Assembly (NCBI RefSeq): GCF_018614135.1
Contig: NZ_JAGGOW010000027.1
Location: 1-64,000 of the forward strand
Direction of reading: 5' to 3'
DNA length: 64,000 nt
Source of the DNA: Streptomyces sp. ISL-66
Lineage (GTDB): Bacteria > Actinomycetota > Actinomycetes > Streptomycetales > Streptomycetaceae
Part shown: piece by piece, positions 14,437-35,199 of the stretch
Layout: the number at the start of each line of letters is the position of its first letter
Position numbering within the stretch: the stretch's first letter is position 1
Notes under the pieces: model-generated
The model's database searches: none
What the model was told of the DNA's origin: nothing
Seen by the model: only the letters and a program-made list of their open reading frames with translations
Made by a program: the position numbers and the translations under genes

Positions 14437-14438
14437 GG

Positions 14439-16054: not shown

Positions 16055-16056
16055 GC

Positions 16057-16963: not shown

Positions 16964-17063
16964 GTAGTCCGTTCCACTTGCCCGACGGCAAGCGGGGGCG
17001 GGCTCGTCATGCCCGATGTCCGTCGCCGCAGGTTGTCGACGGAAGACCCCGAAGGTTCGATAC

Positions 17064-17387: not shown

Positions 17388-17435
17388 CCGGCCTTGCCGC
17401 CGGCCCCACGTCCAACCCCTACACCGAGGAATTCT

Positions 17436-18695: not shown

Positions 18696-19036
18696 GAGCC
18701 TGTACCGACAGCGGTCGCCTGGGTCCGGTAGCGTTCCAGTCCAGCCGTCACCTCAGCCTGGTCCGGGCCGTCCTCGGTCGCCAGGAGTTCCCCGGCCGTA
18801 ACCATGGCCGCCCAGAACTCGGGAGGTGAGCCCCGCCCGTCCCGGAACCGGGTCTGAGCGAAGAGCAGGAAGATCTTCGTGAGCTTCCCGGTGCGAAACC
18901 AGGGGATCATGCCGCCAGGAAAGCCTCCGCGGGCGCAGGCGGCAGTCCACAACAGGTCACGGATCCGCTCACCGCGACCGTCGAGCACCCGGTCCACGAC
19001 GAACACGTGCCGAGGAGACCTTCTTGAAGTTGCCAC
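18680..19036 (-). CDS. Hypothetical protein, 118 aa, possibly truncated
   Basis: Overlaps the integrase 3' end by 16 nt on the opposite strand. The translation is well ordered (RIRDLLWTAACARGG, WFRTGKLTKIFLLFAQ, PPEFWAAMVTAGELLATED) and does not look like random shadow, but I do not recognise it. Its first codons lie inside the 29-bp corA-like repeat, so the original 5' end may have been replaced by recombination there. Confidence 0.35.
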   Translation of the reverse strand: MATSRRSPRHVFVVDRVLDGRGERIRDLLWTAACARGGFPGGMIPWFRTGKLTKIFLLFAQTRFRDGRGSPPEFWAAMVTAGELLATEDGPDQAEVTAGLERYRTQATAVGTGSQMLP

Positions 19037-19040
19037 CCTC
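19012..19040. repeat. corA-derived 29-bp repeat, copy 1 (candidate att core)
   Basis: Matches 34903-34931 at 27 of 29 positions and 41994-42022 at fewer, all in the same orientation. Read on the minus strand it encodes EGGNFKKVSS, the same stretch as in the CorA fragments at the other two sites. Here no further CorA homology follows on either side. Confidence 0.5.
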
Positions 19041-19049
19041 GGGGCGGTG

Positions 19050-19122
19050 AATCCGCGACCACGTCTTCGTACACGGAGCCTGGCGAGACTCGATCACCTA
19101 CTCGACCCTGGAGCGTGAGTGG
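19050..19122 (+). pseudogene. Possible 3' remnant of a GNAT acetyltransferase gene
   Basis: The frame reads RDHVFVHGAWRDSITYSTL then EREW, resembling the last strand and helix of RimJ-type GNAT acetyltransferases, and has no matching upstream part because it starts at the corA-like repeat. The remaining bases to 19495 (459 bp in all between genes) stay open in this frame but show nothing I recognise. Confidence 0.3.
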
Positions 19123-19495
19123 ACACCGATCGAGGCCATTGAACCGGCGGCAGCGGACGGAGCCCCGGCGCGCTCGACCCCGCCTGACGCTGACAAGGCC
19201 TCCGACGACGTGTCCAGGACCTGGACAGGTGCTCCCGCCCATGTCCGTGAAAGCCGCAGGCCGCCCATATCCTGGGAAACACCGGCCCAGTTGATGTCGC
19301 TACCCGCGGCGAGACGTCAGACATGGGCGGCAACCGCGTTTGAACAAGCCAACTCCCGGACCGGGAGGCTTCTTCGGAGAAGACCGCCACACAAGGGTAG
19401 TCGCGGCCGCACAATGGATCAGTTCCGAAAGGCCCTGCCGATCGAAGATGTTGCCTCTGCATCGGTTAGGCCGGCACCACTGAGAATGGACCGCG

Positions 19496-22400
19496 ATGGG
19501 CACACCGAGCAGCAGTGTGGCGTCAACCGCTACGGCCCCGCTCATACGACTCGTTGGCGAGTCTCCTGCGGGCATCACCCCCGATGCGCTGATGGCAGCC
19601 GCTCGGGACCGCTACAAGCGCGCACCCGCTCAGCGTCTGGCGATGCTCCTGGAGCAGGCGCTGTCCGCAGGACTGGTCCACGAGCGCGACGGGCTGCTGT
19701 TCGTCGGAGACAGCGCGGGGCAAGAGGCTCCCGGCCCACAAGACGGCGGGTCGCGGCGCGGCCTACGGGCCATCACCATCGATGTCGAAAGTGTCGTACG
19801 CACGACAGCGGCGGCTCCCCACGTGGACCGCCGCATATTTCAGATTGGTGCCGTCCGTACAGGAACGGACGCAGCTTGGGTGGCGGAGCATCCTCGGATC
19901 GAGGTCTTCCTCTCGTTGCCTGGTGACGAGTGGACCATCCGCAACGAGGGACTGCGGGAACGGCAGCAAGCCCAGGCAGTGTCTCCGCGCACCGCGTTGG
20001 AGCGAATACACGAGTTCTGTGCCGGAACGGACGTGCTCGTCGCGCACAACGGGACCACTGCAGATTTCCCGATGCTCGACGACGCCTGCGAGAGGGAGGA
20101 CCTACCTCCCTTCCCCGGCGATCGCGTGGACTCGCTCTACTTGGCCCACTGCATCTGGCCTCTTGCCCGAAGTCACCGCCTTGCGGCATTGGGCGACGCC
20201 TACGGGGTCAATCGTTCCGGACTTCGGTGGCACGATGCCGCAGACGATGCCGAGTTGCTTGCCCGCGTCGTTGAACGAGCCTCCCGTGAACTGGCCGGAT
20301 GGCCCGAGCATCTCCGTGCGATCGTCACCTCCGCCTGTTCCGATTCGCCGGCGTGGAATCTGCTGCATCATCTGGCGTGCGGACCGGAAGGTCCCGGACA
20401 TGAAGGCGGCCCCCAGACCGGCTGGGACCTGTCGGACCTCTCCAGCGTACTCACCGGCCAGCTGACGCAGCATGTGCCCAGGCGCGGCAGCCCGCCTGCC
20501 GCCGCGCCCGGCCGGCTGCCCCTCGTGGTTCCCGAGCGGCTGCGTCCCAACGGCCGTGTGGACGCGGGGGAACTGGCCAAGGTGGTCCACGGAGCGGCGG
20601 CGCGGCCGCGCATGGCCCAGCAGCAGATGACCGCGGGCCTGCACAGCTGGGCCGACGCCGGAGTCTCCGCCCTGGTGGAAGCACCCACAGGGACGGGCAA
20701 GAGCTTTGCCGTGCTCGCCGCAGCCATGGACTGGCTCGGCGGTGCTCCAGATCGGAGTGTGGTCATCGCCACCTTCACCAAGCAGCTGCAGAGCCAGCTC
20801 GCCCGGGACGTAGACACCCTAAGCCGTGCCATGCCCGGTCTCCTGGAGGCCGCGGATCTGGTCAAGGGCAAGGCCAACCGGCTCTCGCTGCGCGCCCTTG
20901 CCGCTGCCCTGTCGGACGCGATCGGATCCGACTCAAGGACCGATAAGCGGGGCCGTTCGAGGTTCGTGGAGCAGCCCAAATTCTGCGAACTGGCCGTCTT
21001 CCTGGTGCTGCGGCTGATCAGGTCCCCTGCCGTCCCCGAAGCATGGACTGCCAGATCGGTGGATCCGGTGGATGTGCCTGCCTTTCTGGACTCCTACTGC
21101 GGACCGCTCTTGTCTCTGTGGCTGCAGTCGCTCTCCCAAGCCGGCGGGGACTACGTGCCCACCGCGAACACACCGTTGGCCGTGCACACGAACACGGTGC
21201 GCGAGGCAATCGCCTCACACCGGCTGGTGCTGGCGAACCACGCGGTGCTGCTGGCCCACCTGGAGGAGCTTCGGGCCCTCCCCGGCGAGACCATGCTGAT
21301 TGTCGATGAGGCTCACCTGCTCGAGGACGCAGCCACCGCCGCCCTGACGGTGTCCCTTGACTACGGCGCGGTGGAGGAACTGGCCGGGGCCTGCCAGACC
21401 TGGCTGAAAGACGCCCTGTCCGGGCCGGCCCGGCACCGGGTGGCCGATGCGGCTACGGAGCTCGAGACCCTCCTGGATCACGAGTCCCTCCCACAGGCAG
21501 CCAGCCGGGCCTTTGACGCGCTGGGCGGCCAGGACTCCTCGGTTGTGGGATGCCGGTCCGTCACCCTGGCCAGCCCGTACGGCAGTGGCATGGGGCTCCC
21601 GCAGGTTCGCACGCTCAGGCTGCTGGTACGCCGGTTGTCATCGGTGTGCGGCAGGTTGGAGCGGGCACTGGCCGGTTTCGCGCAGGCTCATGCGTCCTCC
21701 CTCGACTTCTTTTCCCTCGAAGCGCTGAACGCTCTGCTGGCTCAAGTGTCCGAGATACGCGAGGCCGCCGATACACTGCTGGCTGATCTCCAGGAGGTAC
21801 TCGGGGTCGCCCCTGCGGATGGCGCCGCAGGTAAGACCGAACCGACGGCGGCCGACACCGAGGTCCCCGGTGTGGACGAAGTCGAGACCGATCTCGGTGA
21901 CGCAGCGGACGAGAACACAGGTACCGAGCCCGACAAGGGGACCGACGCCTCCCAGGCCCGTCCGCTCCCTCCTCCGCTACCCAACCGGATCGTGTGGGGC
22001 GAGGAACTCGCCATCCCCGTCGCAGGGCTTCGGCACTACCGCTTCCGCCTTTCGTCCAGCCCCGTCGAACTTCCCGCCGATACCCAATGGCAGCGATTTC
22101 TGGGCTCTTTCCCCCGCACGTACTACGTGTCTGCAACGCTGCGCGTGGCGGGAAAGTGGGACTTCGTCATGGGGCGTCTGGGGCTGTCCGGCCTTGCGAC
22201 GCTGTGCGTGGACACGCCCTTCGATTTCGAGAAGCAGGCGGAGCTGGTCTGCTTCTCCGACTTCCCTTCCTGGGCCGAGCAGCAGGAGGGCGCCATGCGC
22301 ACCACCGCCCATCAGCTCGCCGGCTACGCGGTCGAGGCTGTACGGCCGCGCTCCGCAGACAGGGGCGCCGATGGAGGGGCACTAGTCCTCACCACTGCCC

Positions 22401-25400
22401 GCTCCACCGCCGGTGGCATATCGGAGTTCGTGGCCGACGAGCTCCATCGGCGCAGCGACCCCACTCCAATGATCAGCGCGCTCGCGGTGGGCAACGCCCG
22501 GGGGTTCGAGCAGTTCGCCGATCCGCAGCTCGGTGGCGGAATTCTGGTCGGAACCAAGGGCCTGTGGCAGGGAGTCGACGTCTCCGATCCGGAACGGCTA
22601 CGCCTTGTCTGGATCAACAAGCTGCCCTTCGCACCCTTTGCGGCACCGCTGGTGGAGGCCCGGCGCGCTGCCGTATGCGCCAAGGCCGAGGCGGAAGGCT
22701 TGGAGGACCCGGACGCTCACGCAACGGAGCACTACTACATACCGCTCGCAGCCCTTCAACTGCGCCAGGCGGTGGGGCGCCTGATCCGTTCGGAGCGTCA
22801 TCGTGGTGTGATCGTGATCAGCGATCGGAAACTGGCGGGGCACACGGCGCTGCGCCGCGCCTATCGCCGTGCCTTCCTGGGGAGCCTCGACGAAGGGCTG
22901 CTCCGTCCAGACTCCCGAACCGGCGAGCCGGGAGGAGGAAACGTTGTCACCATGGCCCAGGGGTGGGCACGCATCTGGGACTTCTACGCCCGCTACGGCA
23001 TCATCACCCCACAGCGCGCACTGGAGCTCTCGGGCCCCGAAGCACTTCAGCGGCACACTCTCTTGCCGCAGACCCTACGCATCAGGCAGCTGGAACTCTC
23101 GGCGGAGGAGGCCGGGGAACTCGCGGCCGCGGACCGGCTCGAAGGGGAGGTACTGAAGAGGGCCGAGGAGGTGGCGGGGTTGCTCCGGTTGATGGACGAT
23201 CCATGCCAGTTCCGCCTCAAAACTGCCCAGCGCGCCGTCATCGAGGCGGTGACCCAAGGGCGCAACGTGCTGGGCCTGCTCCCCACCGGCTTCGGCAAGA
23301 GCTTCACGTTCCAGCTGCCCGCGCTCGTCCTCCCCGGTGTGACGCTCGTCGTCAGCCCTCTCGTGGCCCTCATGCAGGATCAGGCGCTCGAGCTCAACCG
23401 CTCCATCGGCGGCGCCGTTCGTGCGCTGATCGCGCCCTTGCGAGAGTCCAGCAGCAGGGCGGGCAAGACCGAGGTCGCGGAGCAGTTGCTCAGGCGAGCG
23501 GACCACGGCATCAAGATCATTTATGTCAGTCCCGAGCGGTTGTGTCAGCGTAGGTTCCGGGAGCTGATCCGCTCCGCAGTCGCGGCCGGCACCGTCAGCC
23601 GGATCGTGCTGGACGAGGCGCACACCATGGTCCAGTGGGACGATTTCCGGCCGAGCATGCAGCGGGTCGAGCAATTCCTGAGTGAGCTGCGGCAGGCACA
23701 CGGGCTGCCGGTCACGGCCTTGACCGCCACCGCCAACCACACCGTCCACAGTGGTTTGCGGTCGGGCGTCTTCGAGGTGCCCGAAGTTCCACCGCCGGCG
23801 GGCAGCGCCGCTGCCCGAAGGGAAGCCACGAGCCCGGTGGCACGTGGCGGCTTGGTGACCGTTCAGGAGAACCCCATCCGACCGGAGTTGGCGGTCTTCC
23901 GCCGTTCCTTCAAGACGTCGAGCCCAGCCGTGGTGGCGGGCCTCGCTCGGCATGTCTTGGAGTCGCTCACGGGACATGCGGTGTTCTACTGCCTCACGGT
24001 CAAAGAGGTCGTGACCCTTCACGCATACCTGAGGGAGTACCTCGGCGACTCGGGCCTACGGATACGCCGCTTCCACGGCAGGCTCACGCAGGCCGAGAAA
24101 TCGGCCGTCATGACGGAGTTCCGCGAGGCTCCTCGGCTCGGCGAGGAGGGGTTCTCGCCTCTGGTCGTCGTCGCAACCTCCGCCTTCGGGCTCGGCATCG
24201 ACCGTGACGACATCCGGACCGTGTTCTGCGTGTCGGCCCCGACCGACATGGCCTCGCTCTACCAGCAACTGGGGCGTGCGGGACGCGACGTAGCGGGTAG
24301 TGGATCACCAGCGCACGACGCGGCCCCAGCCAACGCTGCTCTGGCCCTGCTGACCACCAGGGGACTGCGCACCGTGGCCTTCATGACCGGGCAGGATCTG
24401 CATCCCGGGCTGCTCACGCGCATGGGACGCGCCGTCTTGGCCTGCGGCACGGTGTTGGACGCCAGGGAGATCGCCGACCGCCTGATCGGTCAGGATGTCC
24501 GGGCGGGCCGGATCTCCGAGCAGGAGGGACGTTCGACTCGCATCGCCGACACCTATGTGGCCGGCTTGATGCGCACCTTCAGTCAGCTGTCGCGTCTGGG
24601 CTCGGTCACCGACCACGGTGACTTCCCTCCCCTGTGCAAGGTCCGCCGGGGGGAGCTGGCCCCCCATGACGACGAAGACCCCGCCGTTCTCGAAGTGCTG
24701 AACGTGGTGAACGGCCTGCCCCATCGGACGCACCAGGTACATGCGTTGAATTTGTCCCGGATCGATGTCGAGGCCCTGGACCGCCGACTCGCAGCGCGAG
24801 CGCAGGGATATCGCGGGTTGGCCGAGAACCCTGCCGGTACATGGCAGTTGCTCGCTGACCTACATGACCGCGGTCTACTCGACGTCTCTGCTGCACCCAG
24901 TCGTCACTGGGTGAGTGGGATCGAGGTCCACACCACCGAGCTTCCGGCAGACTTCCTGACGGCCCTCTCCGGCAAGGCGCAGCGGGCCGCAGTCGAAGTC
25001 GGGCAGTTGCGCGACTTCTTCAACGACTCGTCCACTTGTGCACACAGGAAGTTCGCCGACTACTTCGGAGTTGCCGACCTTCCGGCGGGCTGCTGCACGA
25101 CGGAGGCCAACCGGTGCGGCGCCTGCTGGGGCAAGCCGGACTGGCCGATCGGCGAGTCCATGCCGGCGGCCGCCGAGGCGCTGTTGACACCGAAGCCACG
25201 ACCGATCGATAGCACCGCACAACCGGAAGCTCGGCTCAAGCGCTTGGACGAGCAGGTATTCCGGTTGGTCTGGGCGGTGCCGCGTGGCATTCACCCGCGC
25301 AGCGTGTGGCGGGCCCTGCGCGGTGAGGACAGCTCGTACTCGCCCAAGCTGGGCCGGCGCATCCGGCTGCCCCAGGGGCTCATCGGGAGCCGCTACTTCG

Positions 25401-25549
25401 GAGCACAGGCCGACCTTCCTCTGCGCGCGGTGGAGGACAGCCTGGCCCGGCTGACGGAAGCCTCACGCCTGAGCTCTTCGGGCGGGCTTTGGCGCAGTGT
25501 GCCGCTGACCGGTGTGCGATGGGCCGCGCCGAAGGGAGGAGGAGCATGA
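19496..25549 (+). CDS. DEDDh exonuclease - DinG helicase - RecQ helicase fusion, 2017 aa
   Basis: One uninterrupted frame from ATG 19496. Order of parts: a winged-helix-like N-terminus (about 1-75). A DEDDh 3'-5' exonuclease (about 93-265) with TIDVES, VAHNGTTADFPML and HDAADDAELL follows. Next is a DinG/XPD-type superfamily 2 helicase with Walker A PTGTGKS (about 397-404), DEAH (VDEAHLLED, about 601) and QAVGRLIRSERHRG (about 1091). No four-Cys Fe-S cluster is seen between its Walker motifs. An acidic linker lies at about 780-822. The RecQ helicase has PTGFGKSFTFQLPA (about 1262), DEAHTMVQWDDFRP (about 1372), QQLGRAGRD (about 1588), and a RecQ-type zinc site (C-x-H then CC and CGAC, about 1847-1877). 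Exonuclease-DinG fusions are known from Bacillus; addition of a complete RecQ is unusual. Likely cytoplasmic DNA unwinding and degradation in defence or repair. Confidence 0.85.
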   Translation: MGTPSSSVASTATAPLIRLVGESPAGITPDALMAAARDRYKRAPAQRLAMLLEQALSAGLVHERDGLLFVGDSAGQEAPGPQDGGSRRGLRAITIDVESVVRTTAAAPHVDRRIFQIGAVRTGTDAAWVAEHPRIEVFLSLPGDEWTIRNEGLRERQQAQAVSPRTALERIHEFCAGTDVLVAHNGTTADFPMLDDACEREDLPPFPGDRVDSLYLAHCIWPLARSHRLAALGDAYGVNRSGLRWHDAADDAELLARVVERASRELAGWPEHLRAIVTSACSDSPAWNLLHHLACGPEGPGHEGGPQTGWDLSDLSSVLTGQLTQHVPRRGSPPAAAPGRLPLVVPERLRPNGRVDAGELAKVVHGAAARPRMAQQQMTAGLHSWADAGVSALVEAPTGTGKSFAVLAAAMDWLGGAPDRSVVIATFTKQLQSQLARDVDTLSRAMPGLLEAADLVKGKANRLSLRALAAALSDAIGSDSRTDKRGRSRFVEQPKFCELAVFLVLRLIRSPAVPEAWTARSVDPVDVPAFLDSYCGPLLSLWLQSLSQAGGDYVPTANTPLAVHTNTVREAIASHRLVLANHAVLLAHLEELRALPGETMLIVDEAHLLEDAATAALTVSLDYGAVEELAGACQTWLKDALSGPARHRVADAATELETLLDHESLPQAASRAFDALGGQDSSVVGCRSVTLASPYGSGMGLPQVRTLRLLVRRLSSVCGRLERALAGFAQAHASSLDFFSLEALNALLAQVSEIREAADTLLADLQEVLGVAPADGAAGKTEPTAADTEVPGVDEVETDLGDAADENTGTEPDKGTDASQARPLPPPLPNRIVWGEELAIPVAGLRHYRFRLSSSPVELPADTQWQRFLGSFPRTYYVSATLRVAGKWDFVMGRLGLSGLATLCVDTPFDFEKQAELVCFSDFPSWAEQQEGAMRTTAHQLAGYAVEAVRPRSADRGADGGALVLTTARSTAGGISEFVADELHRRSDPTPMISALAVGNARGFEQFADPQLGGGILVGTKGLWQGVDVSDPERLRLVWINKLPFAPFAAPLVEARRAAVCAKAEAEGLEDPDAHATEHYYIPLAALQLRQAVGRLIRSERHRGVIVISDRKLAGHTALRRAYRRAFLGSLDEGLLRPDSRTGEPGGGNVVTMAQGWARIWDFYARYGIITPQRALELSGPEALQRHTLLPQTLRIRQLELSAEEAGELAAADRLEGEVLKRAEEVAGLLRLMDDPCQFRLKTAQRAVIEAVTQGRNVLGLLPTGFGKSFTFQLPALVLPGVTLVVSPLVALMQDQALELNRSIGGAVRALIAPLRESSSRAGKTEVAEQLLRRADHGIKIIYVSPERLCQRRFRELIRSAVAAGTVSRIVLDEAHTMVQWDDFRPSMQRVEQFLSELRQAHGLPVTALTATANHTVHSGLRSGVFEVPEVPPPAGSAAARREATSPVARGGLVTVQENPIRPELAVFRRSFKTSSPAVVAGLARHVLESLTGHAVFYCLTVKEVVTLHAYLREYLGDSGLRIRRFHGRLTQAEKSAVMTEFREAPRLGEEGFSPLVVVATSAFGLGIDRDDIRTVFCVSAPTDMASLYQQLGRAGRDVAGSGSPAHDAAPANAALALLTTRGLRTVAFMTGQDLHPGLLTRMGRAVLACGTVLDAREIADRLIGQDVRAGRISEQEGRSTRIADTYVAGLMRTFSQLSRLGSVTDHGDFPPLCKVRRGELAPHDDEDPAVLEVLNVVNGLPHRTHQVHALNLSRIDVEALDRRLAARAQGYRGLAENPAGTWQLLADLHDRGLLDVSAAPSRHWVSGIEVHTTELPADFLTALSGKAQRAAVEVGQLRDFFNDSSTCAHRKFADYFGVADLPAGCCTTEANRCGACWGKPDWPIGESMPAAAEALLTPKPRPIDSTAQPEARLKRLDEQVFRLVWAVPRGIHPRSVWRALRGEDSSYSPKLGRRIRLPQGLIGSRYFGAQADLPLRAVEDSLARLTEASRLSSSGGLWRSVPLTGVRWAAPKGGGA

Positions 25550-28122
25550 CGGCTGCAGCACAAGATGCTTCCCCCCGGGTGTGGCGTCCCTATGACGACG
25601 ACCCGCTGATCACAAAGGACATGGTCACCGGTCTGGAGCACTGCGCCCCCGAGACGCGGGAGCGACTGCTGGCCTATCTGGAGGCGGTCGTGGCGCACCG
25701 AGCTGCCCCCGTCCACACGACCGTCGCCTTCAACGCTCTCTACTTCGGCTACGACGTCGAGGCCGGCGGATACGTCGGAGGTCCGCTGGACTTCGGGGAC
25801 TTCCTCTCGGTCGCGCGCGGCGACTGCTCGGACGCCCTGCCCGTCGGCGCGATGATCAACATTCGCACCGGTGGTGACCTTCTGCCCGCGGAAATCGTCT
25901 ACAAGGAGGGGGCCCACCCCGATCTCGATCCGTACGGCGGGACCCCCGGCTGGCTCTCGGGGGCACCTTCCGGTGCCCGAGGACCTGCGCTTCTCGCGCC
26001 CGACGAGGCGCCGTCCCTGTACGAGCGGCTCGTGTTCGACAGCACGGCTTTCGGGCACGGGATGGCGCCCACGGCGGAGCGGCTCCAGCGACTGCGCCGC
26101 CAGGGCCGGACCGATTCGTTCGGGCACCTGCTCGTAGAGTCCAGGTACGAGTTCACGGACGCTGACCTCAGTGACACGGACTACTACGCTCACTATCTCG
26201 TTACCCGCGGCCGCGATCAGCTGACCAGCGCCCTGGCGCCGACTCCTCTTCCGCTGCTGCTCGCTCCAGGAAGCTCGGACGACGAGCTCATGGCGGCCGT
26301 CAGGGGGCTGATGGGCACAGTGCGGCAGGCGCTGGCGTCGCTCGAAGCGGCTCGGGTGTGGGGAGAGTACGCCTTCACGCGAGCCTCGATGGCGCAGCGG
26401 CTCGGAGATGCTGGTCCTCTGGGGCGGGACGATCTGGTCCGTCTGGCTGAGTCGACGGCGAACCAGGCCCTTCCCAGGTCGGGCCGCCGGGCTGCCCTCT
26501 CGGAATCACGGCCGGTGTATACCGCGCTGGGCCCCGCACTGCGGGCCCAGCGGGAACGGCATGACGCGATGTACGGCGTTGGCTACCCGCTGGCCATCTG
26601 CCACGCCAATTCAGTCTTGGCCGACTACGCGCGGAGCGAGCACGAAGAGACGAGCGGCCTGCTTCCCTCCGGTGTCCGGTTGACCCTGGACGACCGCTGG
26701 CAAGGAGGCGGCGTCTGGCGTGCCGTGTTCGCCAAGAACCGGACGGAGACCGAGCCCGAGGTTGGCTTCACGGACGAACCGGCAGGCCGGGGCTGGTCAG
26801 AGAGCTTCCCGCAGCTACCGGTCTGCGGGCCACGGGCTCCAGAGGCCCCCGAGGTGGACGGCGATGCGCAGCCGACGCAGCTCTCGGGAGACGAATCGCC
26901 TCCTGAGGCCGGCGCAGAGTCGAACGACGCTGCGATCGCGCCCGTGGAGTCCTTTGAGGAAGAGCCTGCACCTTGCGGCGGACCGGCGCAGGAACAACCG
27001 AACAGCCGGGCTCTTCTGGTCTCTTCCGACGGCGAGGCGAGCGGCGGAACGGACAATGCCGCCGAAGACGGCACCGACGGCATCCTGCCGGACGAGGAAG
27101 CCAGGCAGCCGACCCCTCACCCGATCTGGCCCGACGACAGCGAGCTCGGCGCTCCCCTCCTTGCGTCGGCACATGACAGCCAGGCCGAGTGGCACCAGCC
27201 GCTCCGGCTGGCACACCTGATGGACGAGTACCTGCCGATCCCTCGGCACATCAGTGACGAGTTCCTTCCCGTCGGCACTCCGGTCCGCCTGGTACGGATC
27301 GTGCTCCATCACGCCGGCGTCAAATTGCCTGCTGCCGAGGCCTGTCACGACGCGCGTGTCACCGCAGGCACGGCAGGGACCCGGTTGGACGGGATTGCCT
27401 GGCCACTCGACTTCTTTCCCGGAATCTGGCTCTCCTTCAGCTGGCAGAGGGGCAGCAACGTGATCCACGCACGGACGACGCTGCTGCCCCAGCCGGTGAC
27501 CGTCGACGGAGAGTTCATTGAGCACCGCTATGACCCGATGGTGCTCACCCGTGATGGATCCACCGGACTCGAGGCCAGTACCGACCCCACCGAAGAACTG
27601 TCGCCTCGTCAGCTACTGCTGACCGCGATCCGTAGGCTCGGCCTACTCGACCAGTTCGGGCAGGCAATGCTGGCCCGGCCGGACGTGCCCGCAGCAGTCA
27701 ATGCCGTCATGGGCGGCGCCCCCGTCGAGCCCGGTAGCATCGAAACCGCCCTCACGGGGCTGCTCGCCGCTCAGCGGCTAACCATCGCACGGGGCAGCCG
27801 AGGTGAGGACGGCCACACGTATCATCCGCCCCGATCGGGCGAGCCGATCGTGCAACTCGTGTGCTATCGGCCGCATCAGGCCGATGCGAAGGTCAGCCCC
27901 CATCCCGACGACGTGGACCGGCAGGCGTCGGCGCGACCGGATCAACCACCTGAACTGCACGCAGTCGCCGGCTTCCTTCGACGTATCGGGCACCTCGGAC
28001 ATGAGGCGACCGATGAGCAACGCACCCTCTACCGCGAGGACCATCGCCGGTTCCGATTGAGCGGTCCCTCCGAGCTGCCGAGGGGTTTCACCTACGTACG
28101 CCCGCACAAGCGCGGGCGTTAG
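25546..28122 (+). CDS. Unknown 858-aa protein of the helicase operon
   Basis: Starts at ATG 25546, overlapping the helicase stop (ATGA), hence translationally coupled to it; the earlier in-frame start at 25489 lies inside the helicase gene. No known domain is apparent. It has two ordered halves. The N-terminal half (about 1-430) is mixed alpha/beta with RPYDDDPLITKDMV and GGPLDFGDFLSVARGDCSD. The C-terminal half (about 540-858) includes LAHLMDEYLPIPRHISDEFL, a winged-helix-like segment (LLLTAIRRLGLLDQFGQ) and an ending SELPRGFTYVRPHKRG. An acidic Pro/Ser-rich linker (about 425-535) joins them. No TM. It is presumably a partner of the helicase in the same system; it could be a nuclease or adaptor too diverged to see. 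Confidence 0.8.
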   Translation: MTAAAQDASPRVWRPYDDDPLITKDMVTGLEHCAPETRERLLAYLEAVVAHRAAPVHTTVAFNALYFGYDVEAGGYVGGPLDFGDFLSVARGDCSDALPVGAMINIRTGGDLLPAEIVYKEGAHPDLDPYGGTPGWLSGAPSGARGPALLAPDEAPSLYERLVFDSTAFGHGMAPTAERLQRLRRQGRTDSFGHLLVESRYEFTDADLSDTDYYAHYLVTRGRDQLTSALAPTPLPLLLAPGSSDDELMAAVRGLMGTVRQALASLEAARVWGEYAFTRASMAQRLGDAGPLGRDDLVRLAESTANQALPRSGRRAALSESRPVYTALGPALRAQRERHDAMYGVGYPLAICHANSVLADYARSEHEETSGLLPSGVRLTLDDRWQGGGVWRAVFAKNRTETEPEVGFTDEPAGRGWSESFPQLPVCGPRAPEAPEVDGDAQPTQLSGDESPPEAGAESNDAAIAPVESFEEEPAPCGGPAQEQPNSRALLVSSDGEASGGTDNAAEDGTDGILPDEEARQPTPHPIWPDDSELGAPLLASAHDSQAEWHQPLRLAHLMDEYLPIPRHISDEFLPVGTPVRLVRIVLHHAGVKLPAAEACHDARVTAGTAGTRLDGIAWPLDFFPGIWLSFSWQRGSNVIHARTTLLPQPVTVDGEFIEHRYDPMVLTRDGSTGLEASTDPTEELSPRQLLLTAIRRLGLLDQFGQAMLARPDVPAAVNAVMGGAPVEPGSIETALTGLLAAQRLTIARGSRGEDGHTYHPPRSGEPIVQLVCYRPHQADAKVSPHPDDVDRQASARPDQPPELHAVAGFLRRIGHLGHEATDEQRTLYREDHRRFRLSGPSELPRGFTYVRPHKRGR

Positions 28123-28180
28123 ACCTTTCGCCCTGTCCACGGGCGTCTCCACACTATTGATCGGCCCTGTTGGAGCCTGT

Positions 28181-31100
28181 ATGAGTTTGTCCCGACAATC
28201 CCGCACCACCCCGTCCGGGGAGAGCGCTGCTCCCTACCCGGTTGACCTCAACCCTCTGCGACGGGAGGACCTGTCTCCCGAGCTGCTGGCGGCCCTGGAA
28301 GCACTCTCCGTCTCCCTCACGGAAACGCGATCGGCGAACCCCACTCCCTTGGCCGGCGCCTTGTCGAGGCTCACCGAGGCGGACGTGGAACACTCGCTCA
28401 ACTCCACACCCGTGCAGTGGCGCCGCAATCTGCTCAGTACGCTCCGCATCCCCATAGACGGCACGCGCGTCAACCGGGCGCTCTGCCATGACGTACTGAC
28501 GCGTATCCAGCGGGATCCGGAAGGCCCGCGAGCCCAGCAGGCAGCCCGCCATCTGACCCACCCCGTCTTCCACGACCTGGCACTGGCCAGCTTCGAGTAC
28601 ACCAACGGCGTGCCCGAGGACGCATCGCGCCCCCTCACGCATCGCTGGAGCCCCGCCCTCCTGCGCCTGACCGCCTGGGCACAGCTCGGGGCGAGGGTGG
28701 ACAGTGCGCACATCTGGTCGTGGGCACTCACCCAGCCCTGGATGACGGACACCGGAGTTCCGGTCGAGGGGGTCCTGTCGGCCGCTCGGCTGGTGGTGGA
28801 TCTGGCTCCTGATACGGCAGCCGAGGAGGAGGAAGAGGAAGACATGCCGGATGAGACCGACGACTTGCCTTGGGTCGGAGCGGAGCTCGTCGCCGAGGGG
28901 TCGGACTCCGACCAGCTCGCCGCCGCGTTGCAGTCCGTCAAGGAGGCGCTGGAAGCCGCTGCCGAACCGGCTCGCCGTACCGCAGCGGCCATCGCCGCCG
29001 AGGCCCGCCCGGCCGACGAGGATCTGAGCGCGCTGCGCAACGTCGCAGAGGCCTTCGACGTCGCGGCACGTGGTCTGCGGGCGCACGGAGCGGAACTGAC
29101 AAGGGCAGATCTGGCCCATGTCCGGAAGGAAACTGACGCGGCGCTGAACCAGTTGTCTGCCGCGCCCCTACGGGAGCGGCTCGCCCTGGTGGCGCGGCTT
29201 GCGTGTCGTCATGCAGATGCCGCGCTCGCCCAGGATCTGGCGACCGCCCAGGAGCGCGCACGCGCCATTCGCGCCGTCTCCGAGTGGGAGAGCGCGGACC
29301 TGGCGGACGCTGAGGCGCTCGACGCGTTGCTGACCATGGTGGAACTGCACGCCGACGAGCACGATCCGGCTGAGATCCTCGCACTGCTCCCCACTGCGGT
29401 GAAGAGCCGGTGGCTGGCGTATCCGGCGGGAAACTACACGCAGCTCCTGTTCCGTCCCGCAGACCCCGAGACCGTCGAGGCAACTGCGCGAGGGGCCCGA
29501 TCCGCCACTGAGGAAGCAGCCCCCGAAGCGCTCCCCACGGACACCACAAGCGCCGACCCCCTGCCCCGACCCTCCCGCGGATCCGCGAAGGAGGCCACTG
29601 GTGACCTCGACGAGGGCTGTCCCCCGGACACCGCAGCGGACGAGTCGGCGAGAACCTTGCGAGACACCGTTCCCCCGCCTCGGGCAGCGGAGGAACCGCC
29701 GGTCATGAACGCCCCGGTCGTCCCGAGGGCACAGGGAGAACCTGCTGTCGCCCACGTACGCTCGGAACCCGACCCTGTCCCCCCGCCGGCCGAGCGCTGG
29801 GTCGCCCCGGCGCCCGCTGCCGCCCCGCGTCCCAAGGACCTTGGACGGACGGTGGAGAACACGCCCTCTGAGTCCCACAAGTCCCTCGGCAAGCTCATCT
29901 CGGCCGAGCGCTACGGCCTGGCGGCCTCCCTGGCCGCCGGTCTCGGTGAACCGTCGCACCGCATCACCGCGCTCCAACTCGCGGCCTGCGCAGAAGCCGT
30001 GCGCTCGGCGAGCAGCGAGAGCGTCACTCGCATGCGTACGCTGCTCGCCGGTCCCGACTTCGAAGAGCTCACGGCCAGCCGCCCCGACGCCGCTCTCGTG
30101 ACCGCCGCGCTCCTGCGCACGGTGCTGGTGACGGGCGACTCCGAGGCCGGTGCCTCGCTCAGCCGGGTTGCCTCCGGACTGCCGCTGAGCCTGGCCCAGG
30201 TCGCGGACGAGGTGGCACAGCGCGCGCTCAAGTCCCTGCTCCTGCACTCTCCGCCACTCGCCCTGGCTCGGGACACGGCCGAGCTGGAAAGTGCTTTGGA
30301 GGATGCCCGAGAGGATTGCAAGCAGGCGCTCGACCAGGTCCCCAGCATCCGGTTCCCCCGAGCCCACAAAATCGTCCGCCGCTGGTGGGACCCGCAGAAG
30401 GGGCTCATCGGCTCGCTGCTGCAGCACGCTGTGGACGATGACAGGAGCGGTCTCGACGAGCTGTCCCGCACGGTGCGGGAGCTTCGCGATCCGGCGGTCA
30501 TCCAGTCCAAACTGGACAAGATCGACCGAGAGTTCATGTCTCCGGGAGCCCGCAGTCGCCTGGAGGGGCCGGCCCGCCAGGACCTGTTGCGCCACACGGC
30601 GGACCGGCTCGCCTTGGTCGCCAGGTGGATCCGACAGGCCCAGGAGCTCGGCGCACGCGACACCAACTGGAGCGCCGACCAGGTGCAAGAGATGCGTGTC
30701 CTGGTCCTTGGGCACAGCGAGGGCGTCCTTCGTGACGTACGTGAGCAGGCGGTCACCAGCGATGGTGTCGCAGCGGCGACGATGGAGGCCACGGCTACCG
30801 CGCTCGCCCGAACCTTCGCTCTGTTGTCCGGTGAGGCACGGCTGGAGAACACAGAGCTGACCACTGAGCTTGCGTTGCACGCGGAACTCCTGAAGGTCCC
30901 CGGAGCTGTCGTCGACGCGGTTACTGGTGGCATCACGGCCCCCGATGTGTCTGCCGCCGAGCTTGCTCGTGCGGGAGACCGATCCTGGGAGGACGCCGTA
31001 CACGTCCAGGTGACGAACGAGCACTTCGCCACGGCGCGGAATCTGCTCGACCTCTGGACGAAACGGCAGCTCCCGGGCCTCGGAGAGCACACCGCTCCTC

Positions 31101-34100
31101 CGGAGAAACTGCAGACCCTCGTCCTGGAATCCGGCAAGCAGGTCGCCCACGAGCTGCGTGACACCCGCCAGCGTCTTGAGGAGAACCTGCGGCGCGCCCG
31201 CGTCGACGGCGCCCTCACCGAAGAACGCGAACGCACCTTCGAGCGCCGGATCCAGGATGCCGTGCCCGTTCCCGACGGCGATCTGGCCCGCGTACGGCGC
31301 GACCTGGACGGGCTCTCCGGGGAACTCAACCGTGCGCAAGCCAACCACGCCGCTGCGCTGCTCGCGCGGCTCAACGAGATCGACGGACTCCACGCCGAAG
31401 ATCGTGAGCGCGTCGAGCAGTTGATCAGCGCCGGCGATCTGCTCACCGCCGATGAGCTCATCTCCCACCTGGTGAACGGCGAAAGCATCCCGGACACCCA
31501 GGCGACGGACCGGAGCCTGGCGGCCTTCTTCCCGGACGTTCCGAACGCCTTGCCCGGAATGGGCATCTCCAGCGAACTGATCAATGCCGTTCGGCAGCGC
31601 AGGCGCTTCGAGGATCTCGAAGCGCTCGACTACTCCGCCTTGTCACCCGAGATCGCCGAGCAGACGGCTCAAGGTCTCGCCGGGTGGGCCGACCTCGCTT
31701 CTCGAAAGGGCAGCCTCCGTACCCAGGGGGTACGAGAGAGCGAGCTGCTCATGCCCGCGCTCCGACTCGTCGGCTACAGCAGCAAGAAGGGCCCGCAGCG
31801 GGTCGAGAAGCCGCGGTCCGGCAGCTACCGCTTCCTCGATGTACCCGAGGTCGAGTACACCGGGTCGGCACTGGTGCCCTCGTTCGGATCCGGACTGCGA
31901 GGCAGCCTCCGTGTGATGCTGGTGTGGGACAGGCCCTCGGCTGAAACCCTGATGTCCTGGATCCAGCAGGATCCGAATGACGACAGTCTGCTCGTCGCGT
32001 ACTTCGGCACGCTGTCGGTGCGGGACCGTAGGGCCCTCGCGGCGCAGAGCGCCGGCGGAAGGCGGGCCATCGTCGTACTGGACGACTCGGCACTCGCACA
32101 TCTGGCCGCATGCGGCAATCAGCGTCTCGACTCGGCCATGCGCGTGCTGTTGCCCTTCTCGGCGGTCAACCCCTACGTGATGGGCAAGCGTGCTCCCGTG
32201 TCCGAGGAGATGTTCTTCGGCCGCCGCCACGAGCTCACCTCGGTGCAGCGCGCCACGGGCGACCAGGTGGTGTTCGGTGGGCGCGGGCTCGGCAAGTCGG
32301 CTCTGTTGAAGGAGGCCGGACGAAAGTACGAGGCTCAGATCCCGGACTCCCGCTTCAGCCTGCTGCTGTCGCTGGACTCCACCTTCACCGGCACCAACGC
32401 GCCGTCCAGCACGGTCTGGGACCGCATCGGCCGGCGCTTGCTGGAGCGTGAGGCCCTTACCGTGCCTCGGAGGGTGAAGGCGGACGCCGCCCTCACCTAC
32501 CAGCACGTGTTGGATGGCATGAAGACATGGCTCCGTGAGGACACCAAGCGGGGATTGCTGATCATGCTCGACGAGGCCGACGGCTTCTTCGAGTCCGACT
32601 CCCCACAGTTCACCGAGACCCGTCGGCTCCGCGACCTGGGTGCCGAGACGGAGGACCGAGTCAAGGTCGTGTTCGCGGGACTTCACTCGGTGCAGCGCTA
32701 CGCGAAGATCGCCGTGAACAGCCCGTTCAGCCACCTCGCCCAGCGTCCCACCGTGATCGGACCGCTCCGTCCGCAAGATGCGGTGAATCTGCTCATCGCA
32801 CCCCTCGCCGTGCTGGGGTACGAATTCGAAGAGCCCGCGTTGGTGCACCGCATCCTCGGGCACTGCTCCTACCAGCCGTTCCTTCTCCAGATGTTCGGCC
32901 ACCGACTGGTGCAGACCATGCACTCGAAGCGCAGCGGCACTGCGTCTGGCCCGCCCTACACCATCACGCGCGTCGATGTGGAGGCCGTACAGTCCGATCG
33001 GGCCCTGAGGACCAGTATCACCGAGGCCTTCCACGACACGCTGCGGCTCGACTCCCGGTACAACGTGATCGCCAACGTGGTCGCCCACCACGCGCATCAC
33101 TACGGTCTTGACGCCCGGCTGAGCCAGGTACAGCTGCGGGATGAGTGCACGTACTGGTGGCCGAAGGGCTTCGAAAACCTGGACACGGACCAGTTCCGCG
33201 CCTACCTGTCCGAGATGGAGGGGCTCGGCGTGCTCGCGCCGGATCCCGATCACCGAGGCTGGCACCTGCGCAGCGCGAACGCGCTGAGCATGATCGGCAA
33301 TCTGGAGATGGTGGAAGCCGAGCTGGAGCAGGCTTCCAGCCGGAGGGTGGCGGAGGACTTCAGCAAGTTCGAGGCCCGGCACCGCTCACGCGACGGTCAC
33401 TCGCACTCCCCCCTCACCGCCGATCAGATCGCGGACGTACTGCCGGGTCACGGCAATCAGGCTCGTTTGATCATCGGGACGATCGCCACCGGAATCGACC
33501 GGGTGAGCGCCGCCTTGCGGGACGTGGCCGAGACCACCGGCTGGGAGATGCCGCAGGTGTCGAAGCGCTCCGATTTCGACCGTGAGCTCATGGGAGGCAG
33601 GGCCGGCCAGCAGAGGGTGGTGGTATCAGACCTCACGGTGAAGTCCCCGGGCGAGGAGGCGTGCCGCGAAACCATGGCGATGGCCCTCGACCGCAACCCG
33701 GGCGGGTCCGGCGTCACCCGGTCGGCGGTCGTCATCGCAGGTACCGACCAGCGGACCCTTTGGTCGCTCGCCCTCGCGGGAGGCCAGGACGACGGCCTGG
33801 AGATCGAGGCGCTCCCCTTGCGCCGGTACACGTCGGACGGCCTTCGCTCTTGGGCCCAGGAGCAGGAGGGAGTGCCGTTCTCGTCCGAACCCCAGCTGCA
33901 GCACCTCCGGGACACCACTGGTGGCTGGCCTCTGCTGGTGAACCGGCTCGCGGCGATCCTCAAGACCGAGCCGAGTGGAGCAAAGGCGCTCCGGCAGCTG
34001 GCAGCCGGGCTCGAAAGTACCGATGGCTCGACCGAGTTCCTGAGGCAGGCCGGGCTGATCTCCAAGACGCCCCAGTGGGTTGCCTACCGGGCGGTTCTGG

Positions 34101-34297
34101 AGTTCATGACCGATGACGGCTTGATCATCGATGACCTCCGGGCGGCGATCGAGGCCGACACGGACGGAGAACAGGTGGACGCCTCGGACTCACTCCGCAT
34201 CCTGCGCGCCATGCAGGTGCTCGATGTGGACAGCGCTGGCAAGCATCGCCTTGAGCCGGTCCTTCGGTCATGCTGGCATCGGATCTACGCGGACTGA
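28181..34297 (+). CDS. Giant P-loop NTPase (STAND/AAA-like), 2038 aa
   Basis: Start at ATG 28181 because GGAG lies 5 nt upstream; TTG 28157 is an alternative. The first about 1100 residues are helical, with Glu/Ala-rich coiled-coil stretches and an acidic Pro-rich linker (about 440-570). A domain of mixed strands follows (about 1200-1320). A NTPase module then starts with MFFGRRHELTSV, Walker A GGRGLGKSALL (K1372) and Walker B RGLLIMLDEADGF (D1464), as in nSTAND/AAA ATPases that sense a trigger and oligomerise. The last 450 residues are winged-helix and helical repeats. It lies 58 nt behind the unknown gene, same strand, and a strong terminator follows. It is probably the sensor or motor of the three-gene system. 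Confidence 0.8.
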   Translation: MSLSRQSRTTPSGESAAPYPVDLNPLRREDLSPELLAALEALSVSLTETRSANPTPLAGALSRLTEADVEHSLNSTPVQWRRNLLSTLRIPIDGTRVNRALCHDVLTRIQRDPEGPRAQQAARHLTHPVFHDLALASFEYTNGVPEDASRPLTHRWSPALLRLTAWAQLGARVDSAHIWSWALTQPWMTDTGVPVEGVLSAARLVVDLAPDTAAEEEEEEDMPDETDDLPWVGAELVAEGSDSDQLAAALQSVKEALEAAAEPARRTAAAIAAEARPADEDLSALRNVAEAFDVAARGLRAHGAELTRADLAHVRKETDAALNQLSAAPLRERLALVARLACRHADAALAQDLATAQERARAIRAVSEWESADLADAEALDALLTMVELHADEHDPAEILALLPTAVKSRWLAYPAGNYTQLLFRPADPETVEATARGARSATEEAAPEALPTDTTSADPLPRPSRGSAKEATGDLDEGCPPDTAADESARTLRDTVPPPRAAEEPPVMNAPVVPRAQGEPAVAHVRSEPDPVPPPAERWVAPAPAAAPRPKDLGRTVENTPSESHKSLGKLISAERYGLAASLAAGLGEPSHRITALQLAACAEAVRSASSESVTRMRTLLAGPDFEELTASRPDAALVTAALLRTVLVTGDSEAGASLSRVASGLPLSLAQVADEVAQRALKSLLLHSPPLALARDTAELESALEDAREDCKQALDQVPSIRFPRAHKIVRRWWDPQKGLIGSLLQHAVDDDRSGLDELSRTVRELRDPAVIQSKLDKIDREFMSPGARSRLEGPARQDLLRHTADRLALVARWIRQAQELGARDTNWSADQVQEMRVLVLGHSEGVLRDVREQAVTSDGVAAATMEATATALARTFALLSGEARLENTELTTELALHAELLKVPGAVVDAVTGGITAPDVSAAELARAGDRSWEDAVHVQVTNEHFATARNLLDLWTKRQLPGLGEHTAPPEKLQTLVLESGKQVAHELRDTRQRLEENLRRARVDGALTEERERTFERRIQDAVPVPDGDLARVRRDLDGLSGELNRAQANHAAALLARLNEIDGLHAEDRERVEQLISAGDLLTADELISHLVNGESIPDTQATDRSLAAFFPDVPNALPGMGISSELINAVRQRRRFEDLEALDYSALSPEIAEQTAQGLAGWADLASRKGSLRTQGVRESELLMPALRLVGYSSKKGPQRVEKPRSGSYRFLDVPEVEYTGSALVPSFGSGLRGSLRVMLVWDRPSAETLMSWIQQDPNDDSLLVAYFGTLSVRDRRALAAQSAGGRRAIVVLDDSALAHLAACGNQRLDSAMRVLLPFSAVNPYVMGKRAPVSEEMFFGRRHELTSVQRATGDQVVFGGRGLGKSALLKEAGRKYEAQIPDSRFSLLLSLDSTFTGTNAPSSTVWDRIGRRLLEREALTVPRRVKADAALTYQHVLDGMKTWLREDTKRGLLIMLDEADGFFESDSPQFTETRRLRDLGAETEDRVKVVFAGLHSVQRYAKIAVNSPFSHLAQRPTVIGPLRPQDAVNLLIAPLAVLGYEFEEPALVHRILGHCSYQPFLLQMFGHRLVQTMHSKRSGTASGPPYTITRVDVEAVQSDRALRTSITEAFHDTLRLDSRYNVIANVVAHHAHHYGLDARLSQVQLRDECTYWWPKGFENLDTDQFRAYLSEMEGLGVLAPDPDHRGWHLRSANALSMIGNLEMVEAELEQASSRRVAEDFSKFEARHRSRDGHSHSPLTADQIADVLPGHGNQARLIIGTIATGIDRVSAALRDVAETTGWEMPQVSKRSDFDRELMGGRAGQQRVVVSDLTVKSPGEEACRETMAMALDRNPGGSGVTRSAVVIAGTDQRTLWSLALAGGQDDGLEIEALPLRRYTSDGLRSWAQEQEGVPFSSEPQLQHLRDTTGGWPLLVNRLAAILKTEPSGAKALRQLAAGLESTDGSTEFLRQAGLISKTPQWVAYRAVLEFMTDDGLIIDDLRAAIEADTDGEQVDASDSLRILRAMQVLDVDSAGKHRLEPVLRSCWHRIYAD

Positions 34298-34321
34298 GCC
34301 AAAAGCCGACGAGGTATAACG

Positions 34322-34361
34322 CCTCTGGGGGCCAACACGTTTCGACGTTGGCCCCCAGAGG
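34322..34361. terminator. Strong terminator after the helicase operon
   Basis: Perfect 15-bp stem (CCTCTGGGGGCCAAC and its complement, 34347-34361) with a 10-nt loop, 25 nt after the NTPase stop. It marks the end of the three-gene unit. Confidence 0.85.
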
Positions 34362-34513
34362 TCAGCCGATGGACGAGGAAGCTGCTAGGACGCCACCCGC
34401 CGCCTGCGCCCTCTACGGTCGAGTCCTGAAAAGCCCCTTGGCCAAAGAGATGATCCGAGGGAATCGACCTGGCGGCCTGCGAGCAGCGAAGTAGACCTGG
34501 AAATGGCGTGATG

Positions 34514-34733: not shown

Positions 34734-34931
34734 CTACAGCCAGTCGCGCTTCTTGAAGATGACGTACAGGCTGACGCAGACGACCGCCATCAGCAGGATT
34801 GCGAAGGGGTACCCGCCCGCCCACTTCAGTTCGGGCATGTCCTCGAAGTTCATGCCGTAGATGGTTCCCACGAGTGTGGGTGCGAACAGGATGGCAGCCC
34901 AGGAGGAGATCTTCTTGAAGTTGTCACCCTC
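34734..34931 (-). pseudogene. corA 3' remnant (CorA-type Mg/Co transporter), copy A
   Basis: The minus-strand frame gives the last 65 residues of CorA: FKKISSWAAILFAPTLVG, the diagnostic Gly-Met-Asn of the pore mouth (YGMNFEDMPELKW), the last TM helix and the basic end FKKRDWL, then TAG. CorA is normally over 300 aa; the sequence to the right of 34931 is unrelated RHS-locus leader. The break lies exactly at the 29-bp repeat, as expected for integration into or recombination at corA. Confidence 0.85.
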
Positions 34932-35085: not shown

Positions 35086-35199
35086 GCAGATTTCGGCGCC
35101 CGTGCCGGCCCGGGACCGATGGGCGAGCCTCCTCGAGACTCGCTGATCGGGGTACCGTCTCCCCTTCGGATGCGGATCATGTGGAGGGGGCACAACTAC

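Follow-up and report, generated by a model that had tools for sequence, protein, structure and literature searches.

A patchily distributed candidate defence operon of Streptomyces combining an exonuclease-DinG-RecQ fusion, a predicted DNA-recognition protein and an Orc/STAND-type ATPase

Do three adjoining giant genes in the genome of Streptomyces sp. ISL-66 form a defence system in their own right, and how might the encoded proteins share the work? The genes are located in a stretch of 64,000 nucleotides (contig NZ_JAGGOW010000027.1, positions 1 to 64,000), hereafter the window. A sequence-only reading had described three plus-strand genes encoding proteins of 2017, 858 and 2038 amino acids (aa), the first two coupled by ATGA and the third following after 58 nt, and our coordinates agree with it in each respect. 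Based on its open reading frame (ORF), profile matches and residue conservation, P1 (19496..25549, 2017 aa) is a fusion of a DEDDh exonuclease, a DinG helicase (XPD-type superfamily 2, SF2) and a RecQ-type helicase with zinc-site cysteines. P2 (25546..28122, 858 aa), a putative DNA-recognition subunit according to alignment and predicted fold of its ORF, starts with an ATG at 25546 that overlaps the P1 stop codon (ATGA). P3 (28181..34297, 2038 aa), whose ATG lies 58 nt beyond the P2 stop at 28122, encodes an ATPase of Orc1/Cdc6-STAND type whose long N-terminal half matches no known domain, as judged from its ORF, Pfam, alignment and predicted fold. None of the named defence systems tested matches this operon, as had been proposed from the sequence: Pfam, NCBIfam, PHROGs and PADLOC contain no family that matches P2, and the latter three none that matches P3. 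We conclude that the three genes constitute a real and conserved operon, patchy in its distribution and so far without a name, which is a candidate for defence and in which the proteins' separate tasks can be read from sequence and predicted fold, the defence role itself being what we infer.

Predicted activities of the three proteins

P1 encodes an exonuclease domain (residues 95-258, 19778..20269; Pfam RNase_T and conservation), a DinG helicase (370-1131, 20603..22888; PADLOC DinG profile and conservation), a RecQ-type helicase core (1240-1601, 23213..24298; profile matches and conservation) and a group of RecQ-type zinc-site cysteines (1848-1877, 25037..25126; conservation), all on the plus strand like the domains of P2 and P3 below. 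The Pfam matches RNase_T (95-258), Helicase_C_2 (959-1128), DEAD (1244-1417) and Helicase_C (1489-1597) thus uphold the fusion proposed from the sequence. Residue conservation was assessed in 33 sequences, comprising the window and 32 of the 36 loci with P1 described below, namely those with an open frame of more than 1800 aa. The exonuclease residues D96, E98, D190, H246 and D251, which make up the DEDDh signature, are invariant, as are both P-loop lysines, both DEAH motifs and the motif VI arginines. The zinc-site cysteines C1848, C1866, C1867 and C1874 are likewise invariant and C1877 is present in 32 of 33 sequences, so that the second helicase carries the SF2 motifs together with the zinc site of RecQ. 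Because these catalytic residues are invariant, both motors and the nuclease look active, as far as sequence can tell. No cysteines are conserved at the three places inspected in the 33 sequences for the Fe-S cluster motif of DinG.

Scores against curated NCBIfam models remain below the cut-offs (recQ, TIGR01389, 181.5 versus 640.2 bits; dinG_rel, 180.4 versus 547.7 bits), which argues for a RecQ-type domain and not for an orthologue of RecQ or DinG. Membership in Dpd or in type IV CRISPR (CasDinG) was rejected on the same grounds, with DpdF (NF041063) at 143.5 versus 550 bits and Csf4 (TIGR03117) at 64.8 versus 400 bits. P1 is divided into two open frames in three loci (L120, L149 and L163) and cut by the contig start in L118.

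P2 had been described as an unknown partner, which holds for sequence families and is revised by its predicted fold. The AlphaFold2 model, built on 57 sequences (mean predicted local distance difference test score (pLDDT) 82.1, predicted template modelling score (pTM) 0.57), contains a low-confidence stretch (437-522) that parts the N- from the C-terminal part. The N-domain (residues 8-430, 25567..26835; model and alignment) is a confidently modelled alpha+beta domain, for which the fold comparison gave no assignment, with H57, N63, E116 and D383 invariant in the 57-row alignment. The C-terminal part contains a predicted B3/EcoRII-N/LlaJI-type DNA-binding pseudobarrel (538-660, 27157..27525) followed by a predicted winged-helix domain (665-780, 27538..27885). 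In a VIA-align comparison of the P2 model with the PDB, the first nine rows are all B3/EcoRII-type proteins aligned to residues 538-670: 1yel (Z 9.7), the LlaJI.R1 N-domain (9.0; root-mean-square deviation 2.4 over 89 residues), VRN1 (8.8), EcoRII-N (8.6), ARF1 (8.4 and 8.0), EcoRII (8.2), ARF5 (8.1) and RAV1 (6.9), although best Z scores of 7-8 are common by chance for models without a clear match, which tells against the assignment, and the method scarcely tests stretches beyond those matched. The 1yel, LlaJI, VRN1 and ARF domains are of B3 type. Later rows for the P2 model are mostly winged helices on residues ~665-780, and the best Foldseek match is again LlaJI.R1 (probability 0.99, E 0.012). 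Comparison of the P2 model with viral structures gave no E below 0.4. By predicted fold only, P2 therefore carries a B3/EcoRII-N-type DNA-binding barrel, as found in CglI/NgoAVII, and a winged helix; this assignment rests on the nine agreeing fold rows and on the company that the domain keeps in other loci.

The B3 part also diverges faster than the remainder of P2. In 214 non-independent pairs drawn from 45 sequences with N-domains at least 85% identical, median identities are 88% for the N-domain, 75% for the B3 part, 87% for the winged helix and 88% for residues 800-858. Such a pattern is expected of a specificity domain and could also reflect relaxed constraint. Domain swapping in the B3 region was rejected, since the lowest identity among these pairs is 57%. 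In the nearest relative (Actinacidiphila oryziradicis, L125/L039), P2 is contained in two open frames that part within the B3 stretch, near residue 616, due to either sequencing error or decay.

P3 had been assigned as a STAND/AAA-type P-loop nucleoside triphosphatase, which is supported by a Pfam AAA_22 match (1363-1505) and by the predicted fold. The ATPase core and the following winged-helix part span residues 1328-1718 (32162..33334), including the Walker A motif GGRGLGKSAL (1366-1375, 32276..32305), and the Walker motifs are invariant in a 45-row alignment. In a model of the C-terminal 975 residues built on 45 sequences (pLDDT 84.7; ATPase at model positions 265-655), the core matches PAB2304 (Z 18.7), A. 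pernix ORC2 (16.7), CED-4 (15.8), TnsC (14.8) and chain A of a BrxC-BrxB-PglZ entry (12.8). Resemblance extends to CED-4 and nucleotide-binding leucine-rich repeat (NLR) resistosomes (Z 14.4-16.4), and Orc-type initiators, TnsC and MuB are also among the matches. With its Walker A/B core and winged helix, P3 is by predicted fold an Orc1/Cdc6-STAND ATPase. Its N-terminal half gave just two matches to PDB sequences, both at E of at least 0.66, and its first part diverges fast, with a median identity of 63% for residues 40-430 compared with 90% for the ATPase.

Distribution, history and insertion of the operon

In 297 Streptomycetaceae genomes, P2 matches were identified in 35, of which 25 encode the N-terminal part beside P3 (in G220 spread over two contigs), nine the C-terminal part only and one N-terminal fragments only. 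The C-terminal part of P3 is matched in 41 genomes: the 25 with the pair, one with a close P3 copy without P2 alongside (G276), 14 with distant relatives (28-34% identity) and one with weak P3 fragments (G139). The DinG part of P1 was found in 12 genomes (E <= 1e-60, three candidates scored per genome), in all 12 directly upstream of P2-P3. Thus, 13 of the 25 pair genomes lack P1, and P1 without P2-P3 was not seen among the 297 genomes. In a draw of 246 genomes from the phylum, the P3 part matched four (E <= 1e-20).

A two-pattern scan of 84,980 species genomes identified 107 stretches with P2 relatives, of which the best 80 were kept, corresponding to 79 distinct loci; owing to this selection, the sample leans to near relatives with the N-domain. 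All 79 loci are actinomycete by title and include Nonomuraea, Amycolatopsis, Pseudonocardia, Kribbella, Catenulispora and Microlunatus. P1 is encoded in 36 loci, absent from 36 others with at least 6 kb of upstream sequence and decayed to a RecQ remnant in one (L139), and six loci are too short to tell. P3 lies 3' of P2 in 75 of 76 testable loci, L139 being without P3 and three loci ending too early. The order is fixed, with P1 5' of P2 in 36 of 36 loci with P1 and P3 3' of P2 in 75 of 75 with P3, and 31 of the 36 loci with P1 offer P2 an ATGA-type start (offset -3). The recurrence of gene order across genera and the frequent ATGA-type start indicate that the layout is more than chance. Most loci have flanks of their own. 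The operon is found repeatedly among bacteria of the soil.

On a tree of 71 P3 C-terminal parts (quick IQ-TREE with SH-aLRT support only, midpoint root as drawn), presence of P1 requires two changes compared with 22.6 in shuffles, and the starred branches force two. P1 is present in every row from outside the Streptomycetaceae. Most simply, the ancestor probably had all three genes and P1 was lost twice, although one gain plus one loss is possible with another root. As P1 is missing in two clades, P2-P3 represent the core, to which the helicase-nuclease is an optional addition. No gene stands widely in the place of P1 in loci lacking it. A conserved substitute in the clades without P1 was rejected because the two largest shared gene clusters (10 and 9 loci) occur in near relatives; one member pair, judged by eye, resembles a transporter plus an RNA methyltransferase. 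The three-gene unit proposed from the sequence is hence one conserved operon, but an obligate trio is rejected with P1 missing in about half of the genomes and loci. A housekeeping repair role in all streptomycetes, considered beforehand as an alternative, is likewise rejected, given the low counts of P1 (12/297) and P2-P3 (25/297). The operon is also present or absent at the same site (see below). In L102 (9281-15880), a P3 copy without P2 has an open frame that includes a 60-aa stretch 77% identical to the RecQ part of P1, as if P1-P2 had been deleted.

The site without the operon is preserved in the near relative G148, which is not among the genomes with P2 or P3. G148 matches the window from 2634 to 19011 at ~93% and resumes at 34514. 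In between, it contains 996 bp where the window has 15.5 kb with the whole operon (19012..34513). The left junction lies inside a minus-strand G148 gene, open over 187 residues of the slice examined; its start, judged by eye, is missing from the window. Since this gene is intact in G148 but interrupted in the window by the left junction, insertion with loss of ~1 kb in the lineage of the window is likelier than a precise deletion in G148. The P3 part of the window shares 93% identity with its counterpart in G141, which belongs to a different genus. The G+C content in 2-kb steps is 66.9-69.6% across 18001-34000 compared with 69.2-71.5% across 2001-16000.

A tyrosine integrase gene (17394..18695, plus strand; Pfam) is located just upstream of the operon, with a relaxase gene (Pfam) farther left. 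The integrase was rejected as the carrier of the operon, because G148 encodes an integrase 98% identical to it without the operon; the integrase and relaxase stretch as a whole is therefore not specific to the operon. Searches for attachment site (att)-like repeats around the integrase found none, and comparison of the integrase region with plasmids yielded three short matches only. Among the 79 other loci, a close integrase relative was found in L122 only, where the encoded protein is 96% identical and a 2-kb segment (91% over 1968 bp) lies ~1.5 kb past P3 of a P2-P3 pair without P1; the only other BLAST match is L174 (25%). The L122 segment (20020-21986) is on the opposite side of the pair from a JetB gene. 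At the 3' end of the operon in the window, a strong terminator had been claimed. The 16-bp hairpin is real (34321..34362, plus strand; folding of 34290-34420, z = -2.67), but no T-run follows and a terminator scan found no terminator, so that termination at this candidate is plausible only.

Relatives, neighbours and named systems

Relatives of P3 occur in loci with other helicases and with pPIWI-RE. The P3 family was found in 28 of 72,556 plasmid records (E <= 1e-3), reaching Rhodothermota, Cyanobacteriota and Pseudomonadota, with seven of the 28 annotated as 'RNaseH domain-containing protein', and the P2-P3 pair is present on Streptomyces and Streptantibioticus plasmids. The one of these seven that was checked, encoded on a Bradyrhizobium plasmid, is a 3112-aa pPIWI-RE protein with a P3-like C-terminus (L006, 5359-14697; 29% identity over 720 aa), adjoining the Z-DinG and restriction endonuclease (REase) genes of a pPIWI-RE island. 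In Brasilonema (L007), the neighbour of a P3 relative matches an HKD+Snf2 model, and two UvrD-type helicases are encoded upstream of another (L106). Of the 14 distant P3 relatives, 10 are directly followed by a co-directional cluster-4 gene of no known family, and six share one flanking gene set (L103, L105, L107, L111, L113, L114), five of these with the cluster-4 gene, which represents a different two-gene unit. The C-terminal part of P2 also occurs alone: between pglW and pglX (L064), adjoining pglW with pglX ~5 kb on (L060), beside a prokaryotic Argonaute and REase-PNTD partner (L059) and near GmrSD-type clusters (L066, L069, L070), where pglW of L064 and pglX of L060 were scanned and the other pgl genes were assigned by cluster. 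The B3/winged-helix half is thus possibly a shared DNA-recognition accessory of Pgl/BREX-2 and Argonaute loci.

The surroundings of the P2-P3 pair were surveyed with 94 proteins from 30 loci, chosen by eye and compared with PADLOC (E <= 1e-20). The 25 listed of 79 matched families include JetD (two proteins), JetA, JetB, Cas1e, Cas6, DrmB, DrmC, BrxHI, SngC, PD-Lambda-1, pPIWI-RE, a type I methyltransferase, a type IV REase and PD-T4-6, representing among others Wadjet, CRISPR, DISARM and pPIWI-RE genes; the BrxHI and SngC matches may be one helicase. Of the defence-island setting proposed from the sequence, the integrase and toxin flanks are present in the window and support comes from defence genes at other loci, but the integrase is not the operon's own.

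Several named systems share parts of this architecture. As in pPIWI-RE islands, a DinG helicase is encoded in a three-gene operon and a P3-like part occurs, fused to the pPIWI-RE C-terminus in L006; unlike there, a B3-type P2 takes the place of the PIWI protein. None of PF13032, PF18157 and PF13111, which represent the pPIWI-RE protein with its MID and RNaseH domains, matched P1-P3 (E <= 0.1), with L006 positive, nor did PF18154, PF18156 or PF18155 of REase-Y/Z-DinG, and BLAST detects no significant similarity between the DinG parts of P1 and L006. The accessible text of the 2013 description of pPIWI-RE covers REase, DinG and pPIWI-RE and mentions neither AAA nor RecQ (PMC3702460). BREX type 2 (Pgl) shares an Orc/Cdc6-type ATPase, by predicted fold, and the P2 C-terminal half encoded in Pgl loci, and P3 resembles the BrxC entry in fold (Z 12.8). 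At E <= 0.1, PADLOC matches nothing in P2 or P3, including PglZ, PglX and the BrxC/PglY ATPase, and neither PglZ nor PglX is among the 25 of 40 families listed for P1. Membership in pPIWI-RE or BREX systems was therefore rejected, as their defining proteins are unmatched among P1-P3. DinG, RecQ, EcoRII and pPIWI are not mentioned in the main text, as far as accessible, of a survey from 2026 that treats BREX and its relatives (PMC12839542).

ATP-dependent CglI/NgoAVII restriction similarly employs a B3-type DNA-recognition domain together with an SF2 ATPase, and the N protein (SF2) is proposed to start hydrolysing ATP when the B3-bearing R protein binds, according to the accessible part of that report (PMC4267653). 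In contrast, the operon here encodes an additional Orc/STAND ATPase, a DinG-RecQ engine instead of a DEAD/Z1 protein and no methyltransferase. No match to a phospholipase D (PLD) nuclease was seen: P2 has no Pfam family, and its 57 homologues have none of PLD type. P1 shares an N-terminal DEDDh exonuclease joined to DinG with ExoDinG of B. subtilis and S. aureus, but adds a RecQ-type helicase with a zinc site and is encoded with P2-P3. The S. aureus protein is reported to act both as a 3'-5' exonuclease and as a 5'-3' helicase (PMC12345164, from its accessible text), and RecQ is not mentioned in the accessible text of a 2025 review of DinG-like proteins (PMC11981726). In the open-access literature searched, which does not cover all print, no paper was listed as describing a fusion of DinG with RecQ or a defence system of this kind.

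Proposed mechanism, rival explanations and downstream flank

With somewhat less than even confidence, we hypothesize that the operon encodes an ATP-dependent, restriction-type defence in which P2 recognises DNA, P3 acts as a switch and P1 unwinds and degrades. The P2 pseudobarrel and winged helix would hold invading DNA through a specific sequence or modification, and P3, an Orc/STAND ATPase with a fast-evolving N-terminal half, would join the complex of P2 and DNA as a switch or loader. Where all three genes are present, P3 would recruit P1. DinG-family enzymes move 5'-3' and RecQ enzymes 3'-5', and opposite polarities joined in one chain could allow both SF2 motors to advance in one direction along the two duplex strands, with the DEDDh domain digesting the 3' strand. 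RecBCD likewise combines two motors and a nuclease, and RecB and RecD travel in the same direction on the two strands. This likeness to RecBCD/AddAB is an analogy of mechanism only, as P1 is a single chain with SF2 DinG and RecQ motors instead of SF1 UvrD-type motors and a DEDDh domain instead of the RecB nuclease. In the two lineages without P1, P2-P3 may act alone or with another nuclease. The DNA target, complex formation, polarity of P1 and defence role are all points that we infer.

This restriction-type proposal is favoured by the invariant active-site residues of P1, the fixed gene order, the predicted B3 fold and its faster divergence, the ATPase fold and Walker motifs of P3, the site in G148 that lacks the operon, the defence genes at other loci and the precedent of CglI/NgoAVII. 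A number of observations weigh against it. The B3 fold finds no support at the sequence level, with one chance-level match of the P2 profile to PDB sequences and scattered weak matches to nine families when the 57 homologues were searched singly against Pfam; the rate difference of the B3 part is also only moderate. P2 relatives are few on plasmids (7/72,556 records), and none was found in a viral collection. The one neighbour scanned in each of three loci with the P2 C-terminal part alone (L061, L062, L063) has no PADLOC match, and the shared flanks of six of the 14 distant P3 relatives give these a settled rather than mobile look. A control of 94 proteins from 20 random regions of ten pair-bearing genomes matched 57 PADLOC families compared with 79 for the neighbours (among the 25 listed: mad3 (two proteins), PtuA, PDC-M01 and PD-T4-6/mad6-type kinase models), and the neighbours were picked by eye and listed in part, so that they lend support and do not constitute a statistic. 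No methyltransferase was found among the 16 Pfam-scanned proteins of ~39 predicted genes in the window, which leaves the sparing of self DNA unexplained. Finally, the dispensable P1 cannot be the only effector.

Since some loci lack P1, the P2-P3 pair must be useful by itself, which may be through an activity of the P2 N-domain or P3 signalling as in NLR-like proteins. One rival explanation is abortive infection, with P2-P3 as a STAND-type sensor, P1 as an accessory processing enzyme and the P2 N-domain or an unrecognised part of P3 as a toxic effector switched on when P2 or P3 senses infection. The persistence of the pair in two clades without P1 (13 of 25 genomes), the CED-4- and resistosome-like P3 core, the rapid divergence of the P3 N-terminal part and the invariant polar residues of the P2 N-domain are consistent with such a sensor. 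However, no known effector domain was found in P2 or P3 with Pfam, NCBIfam, PADLOC or PHROGs, and Orc-type initiators, TnsC and MuB are also among the P3 fold matches, so that we consider it unlikely, though not negligible. An Orc-like core could instead load the exonuclease, DinG and RecQ in a module, particular to some actinomycetes and without immune role, for repairing DNA or restarting replication, in accordance with the repair and replication processes from which DinG, RecQ and DEDDh exonucleases are mainly known. The patchy distribution, the absence of P1 from two clades, the absence from the same place in G148, the varying flanks and the near identity to P3 of another genus render this very improbable.

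The restriction-type activity, or any other, might also be directed against plasmids, conjugative DNA or a competing integrative element instead of phages. Wadjet, the system of JetB, is anti-plasmid, and a JetB gene lies near the pair in L122, where the related integrase segment follows P3; furthermore, integrase and relaxase genes are nearby in the window and the pair itself is found on plasmids. Against this, G148 contains the integrase and relaxase region without the operon, no att-like repeats were found and L122 is the only other locus with a close integrase relative, and we regard such a target as rather improbable.

Beyond the window, P3 may mark an undescribed superfamily in which an Orc/STAND hub is combined with interchangeable recognisers (pPIWI-RE or B3-type P2) and interchangeable engines (exonuclease-DinG-RecQ, UvrD pairs, SNF2/HKD or none), with the member in the window representing methyltransferase-free restriction by a RecBCD-like, single-chain dual-motor helicase-nuclease. 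We put this broader proposal forward as a speculative possibility that the present evidence makes conceivable more than probable. If the operon does restrict DNA, its recogniser, switch and engine would be separable from sequence, self-sparing without a methyltransferase would become testable, a single-chain DinG-RecQ nuclease would be available for biochemistry, one form of pPIWI-RE would be tied to a wider ATPase family and DNA binding would be suggested for a protein to which Pfam, NCBIfam, PHROGs and PADLOC assign nothing.

Downstream of the operon, the window encodes a polymorphic toxin with RHS and type VII secretion system (T7SS) signals (36170-40903; Pfam), and the toxin stretch (~34919-45542) including its direct repeats is also missing from G148, which has ~1.4 kb there. 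Searches of the 64-kb window for tRNA and Rfam genes gave nothing of use. Diverged direct repeats (72-78%) surround the toxin gene and continue downstream (34857-35079/41948-42170, 39788-40032/43033-43277 and 40133-40371/43369-43607), an arrangement resembling that of polymorphic-toxin loci with spare C-terminal cassettes. Farther downstream, an AlkZ-like DNA glycosylase gene was identified (45456-46814; Pfam), belonging to a family often tied to self-resistance in antibiotic producers.

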